Shown piece by piece: positions 15,754-27,595 of a stretch of 64,000 nucleotides of DNA (positions within the stretch are counted from its first letter, which is position 1; each line of letters starts with the position of its first letter). The stretch is taken from positions 186,001 to 250,000 of the forward strand of contig NZ_JAUCBP010000007.1 of NCBI RefSeq assembly GCF_030362855.1, in the 5' to 3' direction. The stretch is from Neoalteromonas arenosi. Lineage in GTDB: Bacteria; Pseudomonadota; Gammaproteobacteria; Enterobacterales; Alteromonadaceae. The notes beneath the pieces were generated by a model. The model was not told where the DNA came from. It worked only from the letters and a program-made list of their open reading frames with translations, and searched no databases. The position numbers were made by a program, and so were the translations under genes.

Positions 15754-16094
15754 AGCTGCATCTAAATCCATTATTTTCACAGGCGTAGTCTTACAGATAA
15801 TGACAGCTTGCACAGCTTAACAAATGTAAGGAAATATAATGGGCTACACACAAATATTATCGTTGTAACCCTTATGCATATTAGCGCACCGAATATCCCA
15901 TAATCTCCTCACTCGTCACTCTAAAACACTGTGCGTCACGGGTAGAGCTAATCGCAGTTCATTTAGAAAGGCTTTGTAACCTTGAATTAACTAGTATGAT
16001 AACCTCAAAAAATATTTGTCCGGTCAAACTGAACTGTTTACAAAGTAAATTAATATTATTTGATAAGTATACCTTGACGATAGTGAGTTCATAT

Positions 16095-16943
16095 ATGCGC
16101 CCATCAATCTTGATAATGCTATTTTTATCATTACTAGTTGTTAGCTGCGCCGCTACGCATAATGCAGCAAACAATGGCGTTAATAGAGAAATTGTAGAGC
16201 CTGTGGTTCCGCAAAAGCCCAAGCGCCCAGGTGGCCAGCAACGGGATATTAACACTCCACCTCCGTCTGGAATATTTGGGGGCGGGGATGACCTGGCTGC
16301 GGCGAATCAATATACCTCTAATCCGAGATTTCAATGGCCACCCCCAAGACCTTCAGCGTACACTTTGATTCCTATTTCTGAACTTAGCTTGGAGAATGAA
16401 ACTAAAACTCTTGGTGGCTTGGATAAGACTTTGAGAATCTTACTAGAGCGAGGACAGTATTTTGATATCGGTTATTATTCGATACCCCAACAGCCTGATG
16501 GGTTTGTTATGGTCACTAGGTTGGAAAAGATAAGCGAAGATGGTGAGCCATTCCCACCTTCCGAGCGCTGGGCCGTGAGGGTAAATGAAGGTCGGCAGTT
16601 TTCCATAGCTGACTATTTATCATCTCTTTTTAAGGCTGAAAATGGGTATTACAGGGTGATCGTATTCATAATAAGCGCACATGATTTCCCGGGATGGAGC
16701 AATGATGCCACTATCGCCGAGCAAGCTGAATTGTGGATTTCGCAGGGTAACCCTGCAATAGATAATAGAGCGGCAAATACGGCTTTAACCGACAACCATA
16801 AAGTGTATGCGCTAATTTATGAATTTGAGAAAGGCTGTGAAAATTGTGAGCGGACTGAAGGAACTAATATATCGCAGCTTATTCCTGGTAGATTGCAATC
16901 TAGGCAACATCTCTTAAAGGCCAGAATTTGGAATGTTAAATAA
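16095..16943 (+). CDS. Unknown lipoprotein, translationally coupled to a TIR protein
   Basis: I do not recognise the family. The ATG at 16095 gives a lipoprotein signal (MRPSILIMLFLSLLVVSC, lipobox LVVSC, followed by Ala, so outer-membrane sorting is expected); the frame is open back to 15996. After the lipobox comes a low-complexity linker rich in Pro and Gly (about residues 35-75), then a folded region of about 200 residues with LGGLDKTLRILLERGQYFDIGYY, PPSERWAVRV and a CENC pair near the end. Its last 11 nt overlap the start of the TIR gene at 16933. The two products are thus made together and probably act together across the envelope. Confidence 0.7.
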   Translation: MRPSILIMLFLSLLVVSCAATHNAANNGVNREIVEPVVPQKPKRPGGQQRDINTPPPSGIFGGGDDLAAANQYTSNPRFQWPPPRPSAYTLIPISELSLENETKTLGGLDKTLRILLERGQYFDIGYYSIPQQPDGFVMVTRLEKISEDGEPFPPSERWAVRVNEGRQFSIADYLSSLFKAENGYYRVIVFIISAHDFPGWSNDATIAEQAELWISQGNPAIDNRAANTALTDNHKVYALIYEFEKGCENCERTEGTNISQLIPGRLQSRQHLLKARIWNVK

Positions 16944-17625
16944 AGAAAAAAAAACCAAACGTATATTTATCAGTTACAGGCGAGCCGATACGGGATCGGT
17001 AGCCGGTCGGATTAAGGATGCTATTGAGCGTTATCTTCCCAACGTAAATGTCTTCATGGATGTTGAAACGCTTAAAGAGGGGAAGCGGTTCAAACAGCAA
17101 ATCATAAAATCCATCGATGAGTCAGATTACGTCTTTGTGCTTATTGGCCCTAAATGGTTGGGAGAAGCAGATAAAGAAAATCGTTTACTGAGTGACGATG
17201 ATTTTGTTCGTCTAGAGGTGGCTCAAGCTCTTCGCGCTAACAAACGCGTTTATCCAATCCTTATTAACGACGCCAAAATGCCTAGCACTCAAGAGTTTCC
17301 TGATGATGCACTTGCGATCAGTCAAATACATGCGCTAGAAATACGTCATTCTCGGTTCAATGATGACTTAAAACATTGCTTAAAAAGTATCTTTGGCCTC
17401 AATGACAGCCACTTTAGCAAATCAGGTCTTGGGGATAAAATTAAGGCTATAGGTGCGGGGCTATTGAGCGCCATTGGGTTCTTTGTTTTTCTAGATTTTG
17501 TTATTGGATTATCAATCGGGGGGGCGTTAGGTAAATTCTTCGGCAGCCCAATGCTCAGTGGGGCACTTTTTCTATTGGCATTTTTTGTTTTTTCTAACCT
17601 ATTTTGGCAACGATGGGTCAGATAG
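16933..17625 (+). CDS. TIR-domain protein with two C-terminal membrane helices
   Basis: The 230-residue product is a canonical bacterial TIR domain at residues 8-125: RIFISYRRAD, NVFMDVETLKEG, YVFVLIGPKWL, DDFVRLEVAQAL with Glu95 as the likely catalytic glutamate, and RVYPILIN. Two membrane helices follow at about 173-195 and 205-225. TIR domains with this glutamate hydrolyse or cyclise NAD. Unlike the TIR-TPR protein at 10770, there is no repeat domain. The sensor may instead be the coupled lipoprotein encoded immediately upstream (11-nt overlap). A membrane-tethered TIR with a lipoprotein partner is the kind of pair seen in defence or envelope-stress modules; that role is inference. Confidence 0.88.
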   Translation: MLNKEKKTKRIFISYRRADTGSVAGRIKDAIERYLPNVNVFMDVETLKEGKRFKQQIIKSIDESDYVFVLIGPKWLGEADKENRLLSDDDFVRLEVAQALRANKRVYPILINDAKMPSTQEFPDDALAISQIHALEIRHSRFNDDLKHCLKSIFGLNDSHFSKSGLGDKIKAIGAGLLSAIGFFVFLDFVIGLSIGGALGKFFGSPMLSGALFLLAFFVFSNLFWQRWVR

Positions 17626-18077: not shown

Positions 18078-19319
18078 TCATTTGGACTTGAGCGAATACC
18101 CTGCAATTTCTTCAGTAATCACGTTAAAACAAAGCCCATCGCGGGAAATACACAATTTGTGTTGGCCTGCTATTGAGGCAATATCGTTGTATTCGCTAAG
18201 CGTTATAAGTGCTGCTGGCTTACCATCGATTTGCGTGACAATATCGCCGACCTGAATGTCAAAGTGGCTGGACGGCAGGTTAGGGAAGACGTAGCGTACG
18301 ACAAATTCACCACTGCGGATTTTGCGTAGCTCAAGACCGAGTAGGTTGTAGTCGGTGACGTAAGGTTCTTGCGGTACTAAATAAAACGCATCGTTAGTGT
18401 AATCAACAACCGTCTTAAACTGATTCATCAGCGCATTGCCCAAGATCCACCAATCATCTTCATCGTCACTGGGGATAAGGTTGACTTTTACATGCTCAAT
18501 GGCGATATCACCAAGTGTTAACTGCGGTAGGCTAACGCGATCGTGCTCGACTTTACCACTTAAACCAAAGTCAGCGGCGCGCACGCGGGTACCGGTAATG
18601 GCAATATCATTGGCCTCAGGATAAGCGGTGCTTAACTTAACATAATGGCGGCTGCCGGTATCGATAATAAATGATTCAGTCACGGTAACATCGTCGTTAA
18701 ACGCGAGTGTGCCAGTAACCGATACTTTGCTCATAAAGCTGCTCATCTCAAGCATTTGTGCATTTTCCTCGGGCTGGTAAGCATCTGCAGAGAGATAAAT
18801 GGTATTGGCGTTGGCATCAAACTCCCAAGCGAAGTGACGCATCATATCGTGGCCAATTACGCCATCGTATATCGCTTCATCCTCGCGTAAATAATAGTTG
18901 GTTTGAGAAACTGGGATCATCGCCGCTTTCATCCCGTCAAAGGCAACACCGCCTAAGTCAATGCGCTGGATTTCAGTTTGATAAGCCTGACTTTTACCGT
19001 CCTGGCCCCAACCACTCAATGCCAAGTCAAAGCCGCGCGGTAAGTCCAAACGTTGTACCTTAGGAGTATCCATTAAAATCAAAAAACGAGCGCCAGTATC
19101 TAATAAGAACAACAGTCTTTCGCCGTTAACAGTTGCGTACACATAAGGCTTTTCACCGGCATAAAGCGCTTCTAGTGCGACGCGTGATTGTCCGCTGAAC
19201 TGCGGCTGAACATTTGAGTTTATTTGCATCATGCGCATTGAATTAACAACATTACAGCCACTTAAGCTGCTGCAAAGTAGCGCAAAAACAATCAATAAAA
19301 ACAGTTTGGATTTAAACAT
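18078..19319 (-). CDS. Lipoprotein with duplicated retropepsin-like aspartic protease fold and C-terminal PDZ
   Basis: Using the ATG at 19319 (AAGGGA 8 nt upstream), the product has a lipoprotein signal ending in SSLSGC. Two aspartic-protease active-site motifs follow: FLLDTGARFL in the first half and FIIDTGSRHYV in the second. A PDZ-like segment lies near the C-terminus (FDIQVGDIVTQIDGKPA). Two DTG motifs in one chain mean that a complete clan AA active site could form within a monomer. A substrate cannot be told. A TTTCAC-N5-CTTCAC site with a -10 at 11 nt lies upstream (19378-19394), the same arrangement as at the ABC and DJ-1 genes, so it probably belongs to the regulon of the two-component system at 23933. 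Confidence 0.82.
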   Translation of the reverse strand: MFKSKLFLLIVFALLCSSLSGCNVVNSMRMMQINSNVQPQFSGQSRVALEALYAGEKPYVYATVNGERLLFLLDTGARFLILMDTPKVQRLDLPRGFDLALSGWGQDGKSQAYQTEIQRIDLGGVAFDGMKAAMIPVSQTNYYLREDEAIYDGVIGHDMMRHFAWEFDANANTIYLSADAYQPEENAQMLEMSSFMSKVSVTGTLAFNDDVTVTESFIIDTGSRHYVKLSTAYPEANDIAITGTRVRAADFGLSGKVEHDRVSLPQLTLGDIAIEHVKVNLIPSDDEDDWWILGNALMNQFKTVVDYTNDAFYLVPQEPYVTDYNLLGLELRKIRSGEFVVRYVFPNLPSSHFDIQVGDIVTQIDGKPAALITLSEYNDIASIAGQHKLCISRDGLCFNVITEEIAGYSLKSK

Positions 19320-19360: not shown

Positions 19361-19394
19361 ATGCTAAATGAAAAGCTGTGAAGCAAATGTGAAA
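19361..19394 (-). promoter_or_regulatory. Regulon box A: TTTCAC-N5-CTTCAC plus -10, for the aspartic protease gene
   Basis: On the minus strand TTTCAC (19394-19389), five bases and CTTCAC (19383-19378) are followed after 11 nt by TAGCAT (19366-19361), a plausible -10. The 11-bp period is that of OmpR-family direct-repeat sites. The same repeat and spacing occurs at three other promoters of this locus. Confidence 0.6.
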
Positions 19395-19409
19395 TGAACG
19401 AGTGTTGGC

Positions 19410-19443
19410 TTTCACATCTATTTCACTTGCTTCGTCTTAGTCT
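19410..19443 (+). promoter_or_regulatory. Regulon box B: TTTCAC-N5-TTTCAC plus -10, for the ABC transporter
   Basis: TTTCAC (19410-19415), ATCTA and TTTCAC (19421-19426) are followed after 11 nt by TAGTCT (19438-19443), and the ABC ATPase start codon is 31 nt further on. The repeat takes the place of a -35 element, as expected for an activator-dependent promoter. Only 15 bp separate it from the divergent box A. Confidence 0.65.
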
Positions 19444-19473
19444 TGTTGCCACGCTAGAAAAGGAGCAAGATTT

Positions 19474-20196
19474 ATGTCATCGCACAGCCATTCACTGATC
19501 GAATTACACCAGGTCGGTCAATCATTTGTTACCCATCAACACAGCGTGAGTTTATTTGCGGACTTAACTTTTTCGATTGAGCAAGGTCACTCTTATGCGA
19601 TTACCGGGCCCTCTGGCTCAGGTAAATCGAGTTTATTGATGCTTGCTTCAGGTCTAGAACAACCAACTGCTGGTGAAGTTGTGTACAGCAATCAAGGGCA
19701 CATTCAACCAATTAGCCACATTCGTTCTGAGATTGGTTTTATCTTTCAGCAGTTTCACTTACTCCCTGAGTTCGATGCGTTAAATAATGTGGCGTTGCCA
19801 CTTAAGTTACGCGGTCATAAACAGGCGTTGGCAATTGCCAAGGAGTGGCTCGACAAAGTTGGATTGGGTCACCGGCTTAAGCACAAACCCGCCGAGCTAA
19901 GTGGCGGTGAACAGCAGCGCGTAGCGATTGCCAGAGCGTTGGTTTTTAATCCTAAATTTATTTTTGCCGACGAGCCAACAGGCAACTTAGATGCTAATAG
20001 TGCCGGTGAAATTGCTGATCTATTGTTTGAATGCTGTCGCGACAAAGGTGCTGGCTTGGTGCTGGTAACTCATAGTGACTCGTTAGCCCAACAAACCCAA
20101 CACCAGTTGCGTTTCAATGCGGGAAAATGTGAGAGGGTGAGTGCACAGCAAAGAGCAGAGCACACTGTTGAGCGCGGGAGTAAGCGTTATGCATAA
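19474..20196 (+). CDS. ABC transporter ATP-binding protein (LolD/MacB/YbbA type)
   Basis: The 240-residue ATPase has Walker A GPSGSGKS (about 44-51), a Q-loop in FIFQQFHLLPEFDA, the signature LSGGEQQRVAIARAL and Walker B FIFADEPTGNLD. The FQQFxLLPxxxAxxNV pattern and small size place it in the LolD/MacB/YbbA group that powers FtsX-like permeases working on envelope substrates. AAGGAGC lies upstream of the ATG. Its stop overlaps the permease start by 8 nt, so the two are co-translated. Expression is probably activated through box B. Confidence 0.92.
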   Translation: MSSHSHSLIELHQVGQSFVTHQHSVSLFADLTFSIEQGHSYAITGPSGSGKSSLLMLASGLEQPTAGEVVYSNQGHIQPISHIRSEIGFIFQQFHLLPEFDALNNVALPLKLRGHKQALAIAKEWLDKVGLGHRLKHKPAELSGGEQQRVAIARALVFNPKFIFADEPTGNLDANSAGEIADLLFECCRDKGAGLVLVTHSDSLAQQTQHQLRFNAGKCERVSAQQRAEHTVERGSKRYA

Positions 20197-22687
20197 ACCT
20201 ATTTTACCCTTGGCTTGGCGGCTGTTTTTAGAAGATGGCCGTACCGTAAATCAACGCGTATTGCAGGCCACTCAAACTATATTGATGGTATTCATTGTTA
20301 CGCTCACATTAACCAGTCAATCAGTACAACAGCAACTTGAGCACAATATGGCGAATCTGTTGGGCGCTGATGCTGTGGTAACTCACACCGGTGCATTAAG
20401 TGCAGATGAGTTTGCTTATTTGCAACAAACCAGTAGTGCAGTGATTTATACTCAGAGTTTAAAAACAACCTTAACCCATGCTGACAAATGGCAGCGAGTA
20501 TCTCTTAAAGCTGTCGATGAAAATTACCCGTTGCAAGGACAGGTACAAGTTTCTAATAGTCAAAGTGAGGCCTCTTATAGCGCTGAATTTGCGCCAGCCC
20601 CCGGTGAAATTTGGCTAGATCCTCGCCTATCGTCAGGGCTTGCAATTGCCGTTGGTGATATCCTGACAATTACTGATACTCCGCTAACCGTGACCCACAT
20701 TTTGCATCACGAGCCCGACCGCCTAATGGAAGGGCATAACGTGGATATGCGCGCATTGGTAAATCGTCAAGACTTTACTCAGTTGGGATTTGCCGACGAT
20801 ACTATTGATTACCGTTATTTGCTGAATGCCGATAAAGCGCAAATTGATCAGCTGTTCACCTGGCAGCAACAGCAATTGCCTAGCGCGGAGTTCCGTCATC
20901 GCCAAGGCTCGCATCCGCTGGCGCTTTTTTGGCAGCGCACGGAAAACTTTATCGGTTTGGCATCAGTGATATTACTGTTTATGGCGGCCATTGCGATTTA
21001 CCAAGTCTCGCGTATTCAAATTCGCAAAGAACAGCACTTTAGTGCGGTTTGTATGAGCGTTGGTGCGTCGCGTTTTGAAGGTCTCAAAGTGTCTATTTAT
21101 AAGTGGTTGATGCATATTGCGTCGTTGTTGCCGATAGTCTTGGTGATTGCTACTTTATGCCATTTTGCGATTGTGGATTGGTTATCGGCGACGCTGAGTA
21201 ATCTTACTTGGCAGCCTAATTTTGCAACGGCTGGGCTGGCCTTTGGCGCTTGTGCACTATTGTTGGCGGTATTTCAGTTGCCGGTTTGGTTGTCGCTCAA
21301 GCAAGCGTCGGTTAGGCAGTTAGTGTTTAACTTACCGCATCCACAGCGTGCTATTGTGTCGCTAGGCAGTGCTATTGTCGTTTTAATGGTAGTCACGGCA
21401 ATATATTCCGACAATGGCTTGTTAACAACCATGGTGTTGGGTTCAATGGCGGCGTGTGTAGCATTGATTGCGCTGGTGAGTTGGCTGAGTTTAACTCTAG
21501 GTGAAAAGCTAACTCAGCGATACTCAGGTTTATTTTCTTTTGCGACCTTCATGATGCGTCAGCGCATAGTGAGTAAGTCTACGCAAATTATGGGCGTTGG
21601 CTTATGTGCATTTTTGCTGCTTTTTACGCTGATGCTGCTGCGTGACTTGGGCAATACCATGCACAAATATCAGCGTCAGTACGATGGCAATTTATTTGTT
21701 TCACAAGCCGACAGCACGCAAATGCAGGCCGTTGAGTCATGGGTCTTGAAGCAAGACGGCGAAATGCGCCAGCAAAAACCATTTATGTACGCCAAACTCA
21801 TACGCGTAAATCAGCAATCGTTAGATGAATTTGCAACTCGCCCGAGTGAAAGTTTAGCCACGTTCAAGCGTTCAATTAGATTGCATTGGACCGATGTGGT
21901 GCCGAGTAATAATCGCGTGATCAACGGGCAGTGGTGGGGCATAGCTCCCCAAGAAACGCAAAGGTCACAGAACTGGCAACAGATTTCGGTTGAGCAAGAG
22001 GTGATGACCGACATAGGCTTAACGATTGGCGATCAGTTGACCTTTATGGTGGGCGAGCAAGCGGTTAATTTTACAATTGTTGCTAGCCACGCCTACAAGT
22101 CAGGCGCAGGCTCAATTACCTTCTGGGTGCAAATGCCCACAGCGGCTATCGAGTATCTGCGTGCGCCGCATTACTATATGGCCAGTATTGAAACCAATGA
22201 AGACAGCTTTTCTACGTTGGGACATTTGTGGCAGCAACATCCGACGTTACGAATGGTGTCTATGCGTGAAATGATGGCGCGTTTTGACAATACCTTGACC
22301 TTGGTTACGCAGATTATTAGCGGCTTTGCAATGATGATCATTTGTTTGGCGAGTATTGTAATTGTGTCGTCGGTATTGGCTTATGAGCGCCAAGAGCGCA
22401 AGAAGAATAGTGTGATCATGAGCTTTGGTTTACCCAAACGCACCTGTTTACACATTAACCTCATTGAGTGGGCGCTTACCGGAGGGATCGCCGCCTCTGG
22501 TGCTATGTTTGGTACCTGGTTGGCGGGGGTACTGATTTATCAATCACAGTTTTCGCTCCCTTACGCACCTGACTTTATTTGGTTAGCGGGGACGCTGTTA
22601 GTGATCATGGTGATAGTAATAGCCATTGGCCATTTGGCCAGTCGCAACAGCTTGAGCAGTTCGGTCCGCGAATTATTGGCAGAGTAG
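20189..22687 (+). CDS. FtsX-like ABC permease (YbbP-like, 832 residues)
   Basis: The start at 20189 overlaps the ATPase stop (ATGCATAA); a frame extension to 20141 is less likely. The product has a first membrane helix at about 25-45, a large periplasmic domain (VSLKAVDENYPLQGQVQV, GEIWLDPRLSSGLAIAVGDILTI), and several helices in the middle. A second periplasmic domain and three C-terminal helices follow. This double FtsX layout of about 800 residues resembles YbbP, whose physiological substrate is not firmly established. It probably extracts or moves a lipophilic or lipoprotein substrate. Confidence 0.88.
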   Translation: MHKPILPLAWRLFLEDGRTVNQRVLQATQTILMVFIVTLTLTSQSVQQQLEHNMANLLGADAVVTHTGALSADEFAYLQQTSSAVIYTQSLKTTLTHADKWQRVSLKAVDENYPLQGQVQVSNSQSEASYSAEFAPAPGEIWLDPRLSSGLAIAVGDILTITDTPLTVTHILHHEPDRLMEGHNVDMRALVNRQDFTQLGFADDTIDYRYLLNADKAQIDQLFTWQQQQLPSAEFRHRQGSHPLALFWQRTENFIGLASVILLFMAAIAIYQVSRIQIRKEQHFSAVCMSVGASRFEGLKVSIYKWLMHIASLLPIVLVIATLCHFAIVDWLSATLSNLTWQPNFATAGLAFGACALLLAVFQLPVWLSLKQASVRQLVFNLPHPQRAIVSLGSAIVVLMVVTAIYSDNGLLTTMVLGSMAACVALIALVSWLSLTLGEKLTQRYSGLFSFATFMMRQRIVSKSTQIMGVGLCAFLLLFTLMLLRDLGNTMHKYQRQYDGNLFVSQADSTQMQAVESWVLKQDGEMRQQKPFMYAKLIRVNQQSLDEFATRPSESLATFKRSIRLHWTDVVPSNNRVINGQWWGIAPQETQRSQNWQQISVEQEVMTDIGLTIGDQLTFMVGEQAVNFTIVASHAYKSGAGSITFWVQMPTAAIEYLRAPHYYMASIETNEDSFSTLGHLWQQHPTLRMVSMREMMARFDNTLTLVTQIISGFAMMIICLASIVIVSSVLAYERQERKKNSVIMSFGLPKRTCLHINLIEWALTGGIAASGAMFGTWLAGVLIYQSQFSLPYAPDFIWLAGTLLVIMVIVIAIGHLASRNSLSSSVRELLAE

Positions 22688-22694
22688 AAGCCCA

Positions 22695-22728
22695 TTTCAC
22701 ATTCGTTTCACGCACCGTCGCATAGAGT
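22695..22728 (+). promoter_or_regulatory. Regulon box C: TTTCAC-N5-TTTCAC plus -10, for DJ-1 and the two-component genes
   Basis: TTTCAC (22695-22700), ATTCG and TTTCAC (22706-22711) are followed after 11 nt by TAGAGT (22723-22728). The DJ-1 gene starts at 22757. The two-component genes follow on the same strand with short gaps, so this would be an autoregulatory promoter. Confidence 0.65.
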
Positions 22729-22756
22729 AAACCTGTACTAACAAAGGAGATACTTT

Positions 22757-23887
22757 ATGCGACATTTCATTACCCGAGTGTTGGCGCTTGTTACGCTACT
22801 CAGTGCCAGTTTTACTCAAGTTTATGCTACAACCAATACACAACAAGACACTACTGTGCTTATGGTGGTGAGTGGTTATGGGCAATCACAAGGCGAGGAG
22901 CAACCCGGCTATGAATTTGATGAATTTGCCAAAGCTTATTTAGTCTTTAAAGCGCATAACCTAGCCGTAGATGTAGCCAGTCCCCATGGTGGCGCGGTAG
23001 AAGCTGATCAATACGATCCGAACAAGGCGTTTAACGCCCAAGTGCTGGCAGATAGCGCGATTATGACCAAGCTGAACAACACGCTTGCGATTAGCTCGCT
23101 AGATGCCAACGACTATGACGCAGTATTCGTAGTTGGCGGCAAAGGCGCAATGTTTGATTTACCAAAAGATACTGCCTTGCAGCAAATCATCGCTGACGTG
23201 TATGAACAGCAAGGAGTTATTGCTGCTGTATGCCATGGCCCCGCTGCATTGGTGGATGTTGAGCTTTCTAATGGCGAATATTTGGTTGCCGGTAAACGCA
23301 TTAATGGTTTCACCAACGATGAAGAGCAATTGTTTGGCAAGAAGTGGTTGCCACACTTTGAGTTTTTGCTGGAAGATAAACTGACCGAGCGCGGTGGTGT
23401 GTTCCAGTCGTCTGATATTATGCTCGAACATGTAGCCGTTGATGATCGCTTAGTGACAGGCCAAAACCCCTCATCCACTGTAGGTGTGGCTACAGCAATG
23501 CTTGAAGCTATGGGGATTGCTGTGCAACCTGTGGAACGCTTTAGTGACGATTTGACCCTAGCACAGGTCGCAGAGTTTTTGAGCGGTGATGAAAAGGCGC
23601 TGGAGCAACTGAGCACAGATCCAGAGCGTTATCATTTGGCATTGGCCGGCATGTATGGATTTTATTACCTCAAGCAAGCTGAGGATGAAAAACAGCAACA
23701 ACAAGCGCTGGCATTGATGTTGGTGGCACAAGAGGCTATTAATAACCCTAACCTTGATATTCAGATTGCTAAAACTCAGCAGCTATTGGGTGATACCATT
23801 GCGAGCCAGAAGACTGCTGAAAAAATTCTGGCCCAACATCCAGATTTTGAACCCGCTCAGCAATTGTTGGCGAGCCTGAAACAGTAA
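22757..23887 (+). CDS. Exported DJ-1/PfpI family protein with C-terminal TPR-like extension
   Basis: A signal peptide (residues 1-24, ending VYA) precedes a DJ-1/PfpI/Hsp31-type domain: VLMVVSGYG, ASPHGG, VFVVGGKGAMFDLP and the nucleophile elbow AVCHGPAAL with Cys159 and His160. Hsp31-like relatives act on glyoxals or damaged proteins, and most are cytoplasmic, so export is unusual. About 100 further residues are helical and TPR-like (QALALMLVAQEAI, then SQKTAEKILAQHPDFEPAQQLLASL). AAGGAG precedes the ATG. It is the first gene of a run with the response regulator and kinase and has box C upstream. A role in sensing or repairing envelope damage is inferred. Confidence 0.87.
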   Translation: MRHFITRVLALVTLLSASFTQVYATTNTQQDTTVLMVVSGYGQSQGEEQPGYEFDEFAKAYLVFKAHNLAVDVASPHGGAVEADQYDPNKAFNAQVLADSAIMTKLNNTLAISSLDANDYDAVFVVGGKGAMFDLPKDTALQQIIADVYEQQGVIAAVCHGPAALVDVELSNGEYLVAGKRINGFTNDEEQLFGKKWLPHFEFLLEDKLTERGGVFQSSDIMLEHVAVDDRLVTGQNPSSTVGVATAMLEAMGIAVQPVERFSDDLTLAQVAEFLSGDEKALEQLSTDPERYHLALAGMYGFYYLKQAEDEKQQQQALALMLVAQEAINNPNLDIQIAKTQQLLGDTIASQKTAEKILAQHPDFEPAQQLLASLKQ

Positions 23888-23932
23888 GTTTAATCGGTAA
23901 GTCAGGATAGAAGCCTTAGATAGGATTGCAGG

Positions 23933-24628
23933 ATGACAGAGTCAAACGGTTTACATGTACTTTTGGTCGAAGACGAGGTCAATATCGCCAAAAATATTGC
24001 CGAATACATGGAGCATAAAGGTCACATTTTTGATTTCGCTATGCGCGGTGATCAAGGCTTAGACTTAGCGCTAGAGAGCTACTACGACTTAGTCATCCTC
24101 GATTTAAATCTGCCCGCCATGGACGGTATAGAAGTCTGCTGTGCCTTGCGCGAGAAAGCAGACCGACATATTCCAATCTTGATGCTAACTGCACGCGACA
24201 GTATTGATGACAAAGTCACCGGTTTTAAGGTTGGCGCGGACGACTATTTAACTAAGCCGTTCTCTCTGCAAGAGCTTGAAGTGCGTTGTTTAGCCTTATC
24301 GCGACGTCACCGGTTGCAAACCAGTGACCAGTTAACCTTGGGGCCTTTAGTGATCGATCGTAAGCGCAAGTCTGCTAGTCGCGATGGCACTGCGCTGGCT
24401 GTCAGCAGTATGGGCTTTAAAATCTTAACGATACTGGCCGAAGCTTATCCGCAAGTGGTTAGCCGTTCAGAGCTTACGCAAAAATTATGGGGTGATGAAC
24501 CAACTGAATCTGACGCATTGCGCTCGCACGTGTATCAACTGCGAGCGGTGATTGATAAGCCGTTTGCTAAGCCTTTAATTAAGACCGTATTTGGCGCTGG
24601 CTTTACCCTCGCCATTGATGAAAACTGA
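23933..24628 (+). CDS. OmpR-family response regulator
   Basis: The 231-residue product has a receiver domain with phosphorylation site Asp57 in LVILDLNLPAMDG, an acidic pair in LVEDEVN and the conserved Lys in DDYLTKPFS. A winged-helix output domain follows (about 130-228; VSRSELTQKLWGDEPTESDALRSHVYQLR). Proteins of this class bind direct repeats of about 6 bp with an 11-bp period, exactly the form of boxes A-D in this locus. It lies 45 nt after the DJ-1 gene and 18 nt before the kinase. Confidence 0.95.
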   Translation: MTESNGLHVLLVEDEVNIAKNIAEYMEHKGHIFDFAMRGDQGLDLALESYYDLVILDLNLPAMDGIEVCCALREKADRHIPILMLTARDSIDDKVTGFKVGADDYLTKPFSLQELEVRCLALSRRHRLQTSDQLTLGPLVIDRKRKSASRDGTALAVSSMGFKILTILAEAYPQVVSRSELTQKLWGDEPTESDALRSHVYQLRAVIDKPFAKPLIKTVFGAGFTLAIDEN

Positions 24629-24646
24629 TCAACAGGCATTGATACT

Positions 24647-25915
24647 ATGACCCGAGCAGTACCTAAGTTTCACAGTTTAAGCCGCCGGATTATTTGGCGG
24701 TTTTGCTTGTTTACCCTCATTATTTCCGGCATTTACGGGCTGATTTCGCTGTCGCTGATGTACACCTTAGAAGATACCTTTATTGAGCGAGGGGTGGTTC
24801 AGGAAGCGGATTATTTGACGCAAGGATTTAGCGAGACGGGGCGTTGGCCAACACCGAGAAGCGCGAATATGCAGCTGGTTTTTGCGTTGGATGATTTACC
24901 TGATGACTTTCGCGCTATTGCGATTGAAGAGCCGCAACGCAAAGAATTTTTCGGTAACGAAGGTTTGCACTATCATCTGTATCGATTCAAGGAGCACCCC
25001 AACACCTTTTTAGTGGCTGAAGTCAGCGAGCAGCTACTAGTGCGGCCTATTCGCGGCGGTATTATCCAGTTTTTAGTGATCAGCGGTGTGATAGTTACCG
25101 TGATTGCTTGTTTAATCGCATGGCTTATTGGTCGACGTACCACACGACCATTACATCAATTGGCGAGCCTGGTTAATGGCGTAGCGTTAGATACTTTGCC
25201 GAAAGATTTTGCTAACGATTTTCCGAGGAATGAAGTCGGTATTTTAGCCCATGCGCTGGACCATACATTGGGGCGAATTGCCGCGGCGATGGAGCGTGAG
25301 CGCAGCTTCACTCGCGATGTAAGCCATGAGTTACGCACACCATTGGCGGTGATTAAAAATGCTGTTGAAGTCGCTCAACTCAGCGCCGGTAAAGATGAGA
25401 GCCAACCACTGCAGCGCATTTATCACGCCGCCGAACAAATGGAGCAAACGGTACAAACACTGCTCATGATTGCAAGGGAAGAGCATGGCGCACTAAATGC
25501 TCAGTCTATAGATTTATTACCGATTCTAGAGCGCACAGTTCTGGATAATCGCCTGTTGCTTGAAGACAAAGCCATAGACGTGGAGATTGACGATAGTTGC
25601 CAAGTTCAAGTGCTGGCTGAGCCCAACGTACTAAAAGTGATTTTAGATAACGTGATTGGCAATGCGTTTAAGTACACCCTTGAAGGGCAAGTATCGATTT
25701 CATTTAAAGACCAAGCATTACTCGTGAGCGACACGGGTCCGGGGATCCAGCCCGATATCTCAGCATCTGTGACTGAGCGCGGTGTTAAAGGTGAGCAAAG
25801 CACCGGTCTGGGCTTTGGTTTGTCGATCGTTAAGCGCTTGTGCGAACACCAAGGTTGGCAGTTAGAGGTGCAAAGCACCTCAGGCACACTGGTGAGTTTA
25901 CATTTTAGCAGTTAA
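24647..25915 (+). CDS. Sensor histidine kinase partner of the OmpR-type regulator
   Basis: The 422-residue kinase has a helix at about 18-40, a short periplasmic sensor of about 95 residues, a second helix at 140-162 and a HAMP-like linker (GRRTTRPLHQL to LDHTLGRI). The H-box FTRDVSHELRTPLAVIKN carries His227. An ATPase domain follows with the N-box VIGNAFKYTLEG, DTGPGIQ and GLGFGLSIVKRL. The sensor domain is small and matches no family I can name. It is cotranscribed with the regulator at 23933. Its end overlaps the convergent gene at 25905 by 11 nt. Confidence 0.95.
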   Translation: MTRAVPKFHSLSRRIIWRFCLFTLIISGIYGLISLSLMYTLEDTFIERGVVQEADYLTQGFSETGRWPTPRSANMQLVFALDDLPDDFRAIAIEEPQRKEFFGNEGLHYHLYRFKEHPNTFLVAEVSEQLLVRPIRGGIIQFLVISGVIVTVIACLIAWLIGRRTTRPLHQLASLVNGVALDTLPKDFANDFPRNEVGILAHALDHTLGRIAAAMERERSFTRDVSHELRTPLAVIKNAVEVAQLSAGKDESQPLQRIYHAAEQMEQTVQTLLMIAREEHGALNAQSIDLLPILERTVLDNRLLLEDKAIDVEIDDSCQVQVLAEPNVLKVILDNVIGNAFKYTLEGQVSISFKDQALLVSDTGPGIQPDISASVTERGVKGEQSTGLGFGLSIVKRLCEHQGWQLEVQSTSGTLVSLHFSS

Positions 25916-26630
25916 GGCAACTGCCGATAAATTGATAGTCTGAATAGACATCTGATGACACTTCATCTATCTCAGTAAATAGCGCGAAACTGCCTTGCAT
26001 TTCAAGCTCTACACTTTGGGTTAATATCGATTGATTGATTTTCACAAACGCTAGATTAAGCTCAAGCATATCGATGGTGGCGGCAAACATCGGCGAGAAA
26101 CTATTGGTGTTGGTGATCGTAATCTGTTCGATAAACTCGCCATCTTTGGCAAACGCCAAAATACCTTGTAGGTATTCTGATGCATCAGCGCCAAGCCGCT
26201 CTAGGTACACATCAAATGAAGCTCTAATATAGGCGTTATCTTCAGAGATTACAGTCAAACTATCTGTCTGAATCAGTTCTCTTAATTGCAATGAGATATT
26301 ACTATTGGAATCTTGCTTACGCTGCTGAAAATCGCGTTGTTCATCAGCGCTGGGAGCGCGATTGTTGAGCGCAAGTAGTTGCCATTGCGACGCGTTTACC
26401 CGTTGCGGGTTAAAATGTTCGATACTGCTGGTCTCATCACCTTCTTCATTTTCATAACGGCTGACTTGGAACGACCATTGATTCAGTTGGGTCGCTTCAA
26501 AATTACTGATCGCTTGGTCGATGGTGGTTTTAAACTGATCTACAGCAAGCTGTGATTCGGTCACTGCATTGACAACTGCTGAAGGCGCAACGCTTACGCA
26601 TATGGCTAAAAGTTTTAGCGAAAATCTCAT
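25905..26630 (-). CDS. Periplasmic protein of unknown function, putative member of the two-component regulon
   Basis: A 241-residue protein with a signal peptide (residues 1-22, ending VNAV) and no recognised domain. It is rich in Gln, Glu and Asn and ends in a CLNC pair that could form a disulfide. It converges on and overlaps the kinase gene by 11 nt. Box D (ATTCAC-N5-TTTCAC with CAAAAT 11 nt on) lies upstream on the same strand, so it is probably co-regulated with the ABC transporter, DJ-1 and aspartic protease. Its position and export suggest a substrate, sensor or accessory factor of that system. Confidence 0.75.
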   Translation of the reverse strand: MRFSLKLLAICVSVAPSAVVNAVTESQLAVDQFKTTIDQAISNFEATQLNQWSFQVSRYENEEGDETSSIEHFNPQRVNASQWQLLALNNRAPSADEQRDFQQRKQDSNSNISLQLRELIQTDSLTVISEDNAYIRASFDVYLERLGADASEYLQGILAFAKDGEFIEQITITNTNSFSPMFAATIDMLELNLAFVKINQSILTQSVELEMQGSFALFTEIDEVSSDVYSDYQFIGSCLNC

Positions 26631-26663
26631 GGATAAATCTCTTACTGATTAACGGTATCAATG

Positions 26664-26697
26664 ATTTTGCTTTGGCTAGTGTGAAACTGATGTGAAT
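26664..26697 (-). promoter_or_regulatory. Regulon box D: ATTCAC-N5-TTTCAC plus -10-like hexamer
   Basis: On the minus strand ATTCAC (26697-26692), five bases and TTTCAC (26686-26681) are followed after 11 nt by CAAAAT (26669-26664), a weaker -10 (4 of 6). The site faces the periplasmic protein gene starting at 26630 and lies in the 119-bp gap to the divergent CDF gene, which it might also affect. Confidence 0.55.
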
Positions 26698-26749: not shown

Positions 26750-27595
26750 TTGTACGTGAATGTAGCTAAAGTATTGGTAATAGAGGGCTTGGTTAATGCC
26801 TTCGTCACAACCGCAAAAACAATTGTGGGGTTGCACACAGGATCTATGGCCATTCTGGCTGACGCATTCCATTCTGCTACCGATTTAATCAATAACCTCA
26901 TCACCTACTTACTGCAGCGAATTGCGAATAAACCCGCAGATTTGGACCATCCCTATGGCCATCGTAAATTTGAATTTCTCGGTATTTTTATTCTTGCCGT
27001 GCTGTTATGTGCGGTAGCGATTGAACTGCTGATCAACACCTTTACCATCGATAACGAGCCGGTGGAGCAAAGTGTTCTTGGGCTTTGGATCATGCTTATT
27101 AGTTTCGTCGCTAGTGTTGGTATCAGCCTGTTTGAGCGTTATTGGGGAAGAGTGCTAAATTCGAAATTACTGCTTGCAGATGCTAAGCACACCTATGCTG
27201 ACTCATTGACTACCCTTGCAGCTATTATTGGTTGGCAAGCCGCAATCATGCACTTTGGCTGGATTGATAAAGTGGTTGCTGTGGTGATCGTCATTATTGT
27301 ACTAGGTATGGCTTACAAGCTGTTTGTGCAGTCGATCCCCGTATTGGTGGATCAAGCGGTAGTGAGCCGTGATGCCGTGCTGGATACGGTATTACCAATA
27401 GACGGCGTGGAGACTGTAAGTACCGTGCGTTCGCGCTCTTTGGGGGAAGAAAAGGTGGTGGAAATTACCATCACCGTGGACCCAACGCTGACTACTCAGG
27501 TGTCACATAAAATTGCAGATGAAGTCGAGCGGGTATTAGCCAAAAAGCTAGAGGTTCAACGCGTGTTAGTGCATGTAGAGCCGCAACCCAACTAG
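26750..27595 (+). CDS. Cation diffusion facilitator (CDF) metal transporter
   Basis: About 281 residues with six membrane helices and a C-terminal cytoplasmic metal-binding domain. The two conserved transport-site motifs are present: ADAFHSATD (Asp38, His41, Asp45) and DAKHTYAD. The linker HPYGHRKFE is typical. These proteins export Zn, Mn, Fe or Co in exchange for protons; the metal is not decided by sequence alone. The start is uncertain: TTG at 26750 or GTG at 26756, both near GGAG at 26742. An ATG at 26740 opens only a nine-codon frame that overlaps the start, a possible leader peptide. Confidence 0.92.
   Translation: MYVNVAKVLVIEGLVNAFVTTAKTIVGLHTGSMAILADAFHSATDLINNLITYLLQRIANKPADLDHPYGHRKFEFLGIFILAVLLCAVAIELLINTFTIDNEPVEQSVLGLWIMLISFVASVGISLFERYWGRVLNSKLLLADAKHTYADSLTTLAAIIGWQAAIMHFGWIDKVVAVVIVIIVLGMAYKLFVQSIPVLVDQAVVSRDAVLDTVLPIDGVETVSTVRSRSLGEEKVVEITITVDPTLTTQVSHKIADEVERVLAKKLEVQRVLVHVEPQPN

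Follow-up and report, generated by a model that had tools for sequence, protein, structure and literature searches.

A 64,000-nucleotide stretch of the Neoalteromonas arenosi genome (contig NZ_JAUCBP010000007.1, positions 186,001 to 250,000; hereafter the window) carries four promoters of one common architecture, and comparison of these promoters across related genomes makes it very probable that they belong together as a small regulon under the adjacent two-component system, activated by its ColR-like response regulator. The architecture consists of a ColR-like direct repeat, TTTCAC-N5-TTTCAC (the box), followed after exactly 11 nt by a -10-like hexamer of the form YANNNT. At the promoter of the gene for the aspartic-protease lipoprotein ASP (19361-19394, minus strand) the box is TTTCACATTTGCTTCAC (19378-19394, one mismatch) and the hexamer TAGCAT. 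The promoter of ybbA-ybbP, which encode a YbbAP-like ABC transporter (19410-19443, plus strand), has the exact box TTTCACATCTATTTCAC (19410-19426) followed by TAGTCT, and that of the dj1-RR-HK unit, encoding a DJ-1-class protein, the response regulator (RR) and the histidine kinase (HK), has the exact box TTTCACATTCGTTTCAC (22695-22711) followed by TAGAGT (22695-22728, plus strand). The fourth promoter (26664-26697, minus strand) precedes the gene for a periplasmic protein, here called UNK, and combines ATTCACATCAGTTTCAC (26681-26697, one mismatch) with CAAAAT. A preliminary description of the window had listed these four copies together with their mismatches, 11-nt spacing and -10-like hexamers, and our scan of the window sequence found every one of them in place.

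With at most one mismatch allowed, the full architecture occurred four times in the window against 0.01 expected, and none of 100 shuffles reached four. The same four sites were the sole matches in the 3.74-Mb genome, where the reversed pattern used as a control gave one match. The bare repeat was found 14 times in the window with up to two mismatches, against 7.8 ± 2.7 in shuffled sequence (14 was reached in 4 of 100). Genome-wide, with up to one mismatch, it gave 42 matches against 39 for the reversed control, and for want of any excess it was dropped as a genome-wide regulon signal. What lies beyond chance is the clustering of the repeat together with the -10, unlike the common bare repeat.

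We compared 20 regulator neighbourhoods from related genomes, eight of which contain a regulator 67-76% identical to that of the window. All eight retain the YbbA-YbbP-DJ1-RR-HK block, with boxes before ybbA, DJ-1 and UNK in every case; conservation of gene order and a motif scan of the genome and its relatives had both been named as checks in the preliminary description, and the scan gave four sole sites in the genome and boxes at the homologous promoters of the relatives. Loss of the repeats from orthologous loci, which the same description had said would refute a regulon, was not observed: they are kept at 32 promoters in nine genomes including the window (nine of ybbA, nine of DJ-1, nine of UNK, four of ASP and one of a second DJ-1 gene in genome G032), 28 boxes being exact and four having one mismatch. 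These sites were chosen by the repeat and its place before a gene, not by the -10, with the exception of the G015 ybbA promoter, where the overlapping copy with a -10 was taken. At the -10, position 2 was A and position 6 was T in 32 of 32 promoters, and position 1 was T or C in 31. Relocated targets also retain boxes of their own, as seen for UNK in G015 and G032, for ASP in G001, G021 and G015, and for YbbA-like and DJ-1 genes; further unlinked boxed copies encode a YbbA-like ATPase and an alpha/beta hydrolase in G016, and a DJ-1 protein and a beta-lactamase-family protein in G020.

These data bear on the explanation that the repeats arose by chance and were kept by shared ancestry, the boxes being merely conserved intergenic DNA. 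The genomes are indeed related, and the bare repeat shows no genome-wide excess. Against this stand the 20 columns upstream of the box, which hold at most 0.27 bits each, save for the A just before the box (0.46 bits), next to a near-invariant box and -10 at the 32 promoters; the reappearance of the same box at new positions when targets move; and the patchy presence of the box within genera. We consider this explanation hardly credible.

The ybbA promoter of G015 (L064:15101-15150, minus strand) carries not two but about five head-to-tail copies of the 11-bp half-site, giving four overlapping matches, and its operator looks as if it had grown by slippage. The YbbP homologue of G049 (L065:11810-14268, minus strand) matched as two overlapping pieces, perhaps owing to a frameshift or a sequencing error.

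In seven genomes with weaker regulator relatives (G024, G020, G016, G029, G014, G018 and G025) most of the promoters inspected were boxed, with 0-2 mismatches; no box within this range was present at the DJ-1 promoter of G025. The RR genes of G024, G029 and G014 have no box of their own, and at least that of G024 lies directly behind DJ-1. Paralogous regulator loci (L074, L075, L076, L078 and L079) had no box before RR or DJ-1 at up to two mismatches. These five belong to a sister clade of regulators that stand beside kinase and DJ-1 genes at seven loci; the other two, L077 and L080, have one box or more. The association of regulator and DJ-1 may be older than the operator.

The comparison was extended within the family, 147 genomes in all, of which 51 matched the DJ-1 profile at E <= 1e-80. 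The further sample consisted of all 31 previously unused genomes with a DJ-1 match of E 1.3e-135 or better. In all 31 the DJ-1 promoter had a box with at most two mismatches (22 exact, six with one and three with two), and YANNNT followed it after 11 nt in 28; the other three keep the A of position 2 and the T of position 6. Among 21 ybbA rows, 19 had an exact box. The apparent lack of one in G129 was a locus-edge artefact, an exact box being present in L368, and G073, in which ybbAP sits between DJ-1 and the regulator gene, has no box before ybbA. UNK was boxed in seven of eight rows, and the eighth (G143), truncated at the locus end, has an exact box in L353. ASP was boxed in five of five.

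Next to its conservation at homologous promoters, the box follows the regulator. Exact full-architecture sites numbered 128 across the 147 genomes, compared with 15 for the reversed control. The 31 genomes with a regulator of at least 61% identity hold 99 of these sites (3.2 per genome, at least one in each of the 31), the 22 genomes with a 50-60% relative hold 17, located in nine genomes, and among the 94 genomes in which no regulator match reached E <= 1e-70 there are 12 sites, spread over 12 genomes (0.13 per genome), which is near the control level. Kinship was handled by permutation within genera: in the 16 genera containing both kinds of genome, the observed total of 81 sites was not attained in any of 20,000 permutations. 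As the targets often move in company with the regulator, 30 ASP homologues were examined alone. When a regulator of at least 61% identity was present, 15 of 18 rows had the full architecture, two had an exact box without YANNNT and one had neither, and with a 50-60% relative the full architecture was found in five of five rows (up to two mismatches), so that 20 of 23 rows with a regulator of at least 50% stand against one of seven without. The preliminary description had assigned control of all four units to the adjacent OmpR-type regulator, and the relocated boxed targets, the 31 further genomes and the co-occurrence of box and regulator support that assignment at the level of sequence.

It could be argued that another OmpR-family regulator, of CreB, PhoB or paralogue type, binds the boxes and that the adjacent pair is a bystander or shares the sites. 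The genome is rich in candidates (49 scored matches of 71 candidates to OmpR-type regulators), the cre/blr tag TTCACN6TTCAC quoted in an excerpt of PMC4689548 shares the core of the box, and Escherichia coli PhoB sites such as TTTCACATTTCTGTGACA are similar to it. The number of boxes, however, tracks the adjacent regulator across the 147 genomes and within the 16 mixed genera, and ASP without the regulator has the full architecture in the single row mentioned above. The window regulator is 33% identical to E. coli CreB and scores 132 bits on the CreB model, for which the cut-off is 273. We therefore regard the involvement of another regulator as unlikely. A CreB-type identity for the window regulator itself, to which the matching cre tag had been the lead, failed the equivalog score, the identity comparison and the tree described below, in which CreB falls outside the clade; no CreD domain was found by Pfam among the scanned window neighbours.

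The regulator (23933-24628, plus strand) is of the OmpR/PhoB type, with Pfam Response_reg (E 6.2e-27) and Trans_reg_C (E 1.8e-15) domains, and together with the adjoining kinase it has the domains of such a regulator and its cognate partner. By sequence it is ColR-like. The regulator of locus L175 (Pseudomonas ceruminis) lies between a divergent PAP2 gene and genes for a kinase, a methyltransferase and a lipopolysaccharide kinase. This is the arrangement described for colR (PP0901) in an excerpt of PMC2689224, and L175 was therefore taken as ColR; its identity with the window regulator is 47%. The named ColR-like relatives came from a contig scan with the regulator alignment and two generic peptide patterns, in which broad OmpR-type matches were listed. 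In a tree of 53 rows the window regulator falls into a clade of 44 (support 99/96) with ColR and relatives from Xanthomonadaceae, which leaves out eight E. coli regulators (CreB, QseB, BasR, HprR, CusR, PhoB, PhoP and CpxR), and a subgroup of 21 (98/89) comprises the window regulator with the related loci. The tree does not resolve the branching within the clade. Similarity was the basis on which the relatives had been chosen, and CreB and PhoB sit on long branches, so that this clade test is partly a selected one.

The box likewise appears nearly that of Pseudomonas putida ColR. Footprinted ColR sites include TTTCACGTTTTTTTCAC at PP0737 and CTTCACACTTTTTTCAC at gloA, the lactoylglutathione lyase gene (PMC2689224, in part). 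These two deviate from the ColR consensus YYNASNNYTTTTTSAC at none of 13 positions, and the four window boxes at one, two, two and two. A helix segment of the window regulator, SDALRSHVYQLR, resembles SDSLRSHVHQLR of ColR. Like the window, the ColRS system of P. putida (ColRS/VgrRS in Xanthomonas) uses a direct-repeat box with an 11-bp period, and the published ColR regulon is rich in membrane genes besides having the footprinted gloA site. The two systems differ in their surroundings, the neighbours of ColRS being PAP2, methyltransferase and lipopolysaccharide-kinase genes whereas those of the window pair are DJ-1, ybbAP and UNK. They also differ in the spacer of the box, since the T-tract of the ColR box is missing from the window spacers, and in the position of the regulator gene, which lies behind a boxed promoter in the window while P. 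putida ColR is reported, in the excerpted PMC2689224, not to regulate itself.

We propose that the kinase would detect an envelope disturbance and phosphorylate the ColR-like regulator, which would then bind TTTCAC-N5-TTTCAC as a head-to-tail dimer. Since 11 nt separate the second half-site from the -10 that follows it, the dimer may stand in for the -35 element and recruit sigma-70 polymerase by a PhoB-like class II activation. The units switched on would be the YbbAP-like type VII ABC transporter, DJ-1 together with the regulator and kinase, the LolA-like UNK protein and the aspartic-protease lipoprotein ASP, and the dj1-RR-HK operon would provide autoregulation. The genome sequences show the architecture and how well it is conserved, its association with the regulator and the boxes kept at relocated targets; it is by inference that we propose direct binding, activation rather than repression, autoregulation and the functions of the products.

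The placement of a box where the -35 element would be is the geometry of PhoB-type activators. A simple sigma-70 scan called no -35/-10 pair on the right strand at any of the four sites; its one minus-strand call, 22700-22672, overlaps the DJ-1 box. These features matter for the converse possibility, that the boxes are repressor sites through which the regulator keeps the units off until a signal releases them. OmpR-type regulators can repress, and a protein bound beside the -10 could block the polymerase. The excerpt of PMC10294691 terms PhoB a dual regulator, and it also mentions strict spacing at PhoB promoters. By analogy with such promoters, the fixed 11 nt between box and -10 is what one would expect of an activator standing in for the -35, and this, with the missing right-strand -35/-10 pairs, leads us to consider repression very improbable and to retain activation by the adjacent regulator.

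The reach of the box was followed in 36 further stretches around exact sites, which yielded 43 rows with the full architecture; inspection covered the 128 exact sites except those of G002:C18, G069, G114, G115, G141 and G151, all in genomes without a regulator match at E <= 1e-70. In 28 of the 43 rows the site fronts a homologue of ybbA, DJ-1, UNK or ASP. Three of these were identified by short open reading frames only (L375, 95 aa, UNK; L381, 85 aa, YbbA; one of the L385 rows, 116 aa, DJ-1), and the other L385 row repeats a site already contained in L332. Alpha/beta hydrolases lie behind the box in six genomes (L144, L348, L370, L380, L382 and L386) and beta-lactamase-family proteins in two (L149 and L363); an S41 peptidase (L371) and an amidohydrolase (L355) were found once each. 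As judged by sequence, hydrolytic enzymes are the recurring theme of the extra targets, several with signal or anchor sequences recognised by eye. Exact bare repeats that front none of ybbA, DJ-1, UNK or ASP mostly lie inside genes or have no -10, and for the site G027:C14:4125 (L145) no downstream open reading frame was reported.

ASP (18078-19319, minus strand), whose gene starts with the ATG at 19319, is a retropepsin-type aspartic-protease lipoprotein with Pfam Asp_protease_2 (E 5.6e-17), two D-T-G motifs and, by eye, the lipobox LSGC. The preliminary description had called it an aspartic-protease/PDZ lipoprotein; the protease part is borne out by Pfam, and the PDZ part has no Pfam match at E <= 0.001, the C-terminus being PDZ-like by eye. 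The protein encoded by dj1 (22757-23887, plus strand) is an exported member of the Hsp31/DJ-1 class with a C-terminal extension, a signal peptide seen by eye and a Pfam DJ-1_PfpI match (E 1.8e-14). Its nucleophile-elbow cysteine, Cys159 in AVCHG, is invariant in 11 of 11 rows, as befits the Hsp31/DJ-1 superfamily, and the best solved relatives of its profile include ThiJ/PfpI proteins (4p5p and 1u9c), glyoxalase III (4lru) and yeast YDR533c. HprSR-hchA of E. coli is similar in having a DJ-1-superfamily gene beside a two-component system, and differs in that HprR lies outside the clade of the window regulator and that the Hsp31/YDR533c group is closer to the window DJ-1 than HchA is.

The transporter consists of a YbbA/LolD-like ABC ATPase (19474-20196, plus strand), 43% identical to the canonical YbbA of the same genome, and a YbbP-like type VII ABC permease (20189-22687, plus strand; Pfam FtsX), a divergent paralogue with 22% identity to the canonical YbbP. 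On the NCBIfam YbbP model the window permease scores 189 bits, far below the cut-off of 999, and the YbbP of the second, canonical-like ybbAP elsewhere in the genome scores 616 bits, also below it. For the ATPase and the permease, as for DJ-1, the regulator and the kinase, none of the NCBIfam equivalogs listed (at most the best 25 per protein) reached its cut-off. The canonical-like ybbAP adjoins a divergent GDSL-type, TesA-like gene and has no box at up to one mismatch. YbbAP-TesA of E. coli, reported in the abstract of PMC12646458 to extract hydrophobic compounds from the inner membrane, resembles the window system in that the genes of a type VII ABC transporter, ATPase and permease, lie together with that of an exported hydrolase; in the window, DJ-1 takes the place of TesA.

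Two loci outside the family bring ColR-like systems and YbbAP together. In L168 (Stenotrophomonas rhizophila) ybbAP is divergent from a tesA-like gene, which is followed by a ColR-like regulator and kinase, and no box was found at up to two mismatches in the part scanned. In L181 (uncultured Kordiimonas) ybbAP is divergent from a ColR-like pair, and two degenerate sites, TTTCACCTTCATTTGAC (9897, minus strand) and TTTGACGTCTGTTTGAC (9941, plus strand), each followed after 11 nt by TAATCT or TATGCT, face ybbA and the regulator. The L181 sites are a TTTSAC version of the window operator.

UNK (25905-26630, minus strand) has a signal peptide by eye. By sequence it has no Pfam match at E <= 0.001 (weak ones begin at E 0.11) and none among PDB sequences at E <= 1. 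An AlphaFold2 model built from nine sequences (pLDDT 80) aligned with 3bk5 at Z 9.1 over 174 residues with a root-mean-square deviation (rmsd) of 5.1 A. The next matches, Z 8.6 to 5.6, were LolA3 and LolB of Porphyromonas, LprG, LolA, LolB, MucB and RseB, among porins and other barrels, and the best Foldseek match was a DUF1329 protein (E 2.8e-4). The model thus resembles LolA, LolB, RseB and LprG, and a LolA-like open beta-barrel carrier fold is probable for UNK, a grade set by Z values close to those of unrelated models.

The sensor histidine kinase (24647-25915, plus strand; Pfam HATPase_c and HisKA) has a periplasmic part of about 100 residues. ColS senses zinc and iron through a periplasmic ExxE motif, according to the part of PMC4074579 consulted. 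The FExRE of ColS is not at the aligned position in the window kinase or its relatives; in the window kinase and 4 of 11 relatives an ExxE, EVSE, stands five residues before that position, and the other seven relatives do not have it. The reading of a sensor without the ColS metal motif was dropped, as 5 of 12 rows have an ExxE five residues from the aligned position, and metals stay among the possible signals. An H-Y-H motif in the sensor is invariant in 10 of 10 close sequences, the window included. A model of the sensor part (pLDDT 83) had no solved match at E <= 0.001, which is not evidence of a new fold.

Several observations weigh against a single regulon governed by the adjacent regulator. 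The co-occurrence of box and regulator is not fully independent, since the two often share one gene block. Of the seven ASP rows without the regulator, four had no box; G002 had the full architecture with one mismatch, G018 an exact box without a -10, and G031 a box with one mismatch and no -10, and G002 and G018 carry a 48-49% paralogue of the regulator. In G088 (L386) the alpha/beta hydrolase has an exact site in a genome without a regulator match at E <= 1e-70. Among the 43 additional full-architecture rows, 14 front other genes and one fronts no open reading frame. At 3 of the 31 further DJ-1 promoters the pyrimidine of -10 position 1 is missing, and the LolA-like fold of UNK draws on a superposition at an rmsd of about 5 A without a sequence match.

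The paralogous transporter, DJ-1 in the place of its partner, the LolA-like protein and the hydrolases suggest removal or repair of hydrophobic or damaged envelope material, and the most likely task of the regulon is envelope maintenance, in which such material would be extracted, carried and then hydrolysed or repaired. A hydrophobic molecule would be lifted from the inner membrane by the transporter and carried or sensed by UNK; its degradation or repair would fall to DJ-1, to the protease and, in some genomes, to alpha/beta hydrolases. A more specific version, to which we give rather little credence, makes the products a single, physically linked line that repairs envelope lipids or lipoproteins after damage, in which the LolA-like carrier would receive the cargo and report to the kinase in the manner of RseB/MucB, and DJ-1, the aspartic protease and alpha/beta hydrolases would finish the cargo. 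If true, it would represent a response dedicated to envelope stress and separate from Cpx, Rcs, sigma-E and Bae.

The preliminary description knew of no system of such composition. This holds for the composition, which was not found described among the matches listed in open-licence full texts; it does not hold for the switch, which is known in kind, with a ColR-like regulator and a box almost the same as the one footprinted for ColR. What appears to be new is the set of targets: a second YbbAP-type ABC transporter, an exported Hsp31/DJ-1 protein, UNK with its LolA-like model, ASP and, in some genomes, hydrolases. The regulon is compact, conserved and sharply defined, with members mostly of undefined function, and its operator is good enough to read targets off a new genome. 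The transporter, the exported DJ-1-class enzyme, UNK with its probable carrier fold and the protease ASP all come under one switch, so that a single regulator would give a common handle on all four. The questions touched are the cargo of YbbAP paralogues, the substrates of exported DJ-1 proteins and the signals of ColR-like systems outside Pseudomonas.

Two neighbours of the cluster were also noted. A CDF-type cation transporter (26750-27595, plus strand) adjoins it and was not found in the 20 orthologous loci scanned at E 1e-8. On the other side, a TIR-domain protein (16933-17625, plus strand; Pfam TIR_2, E 3.7e-13) is encoded directly after an open reading frame without a Pfam match (15996-16943), and the two may form a signalling or defence pair.

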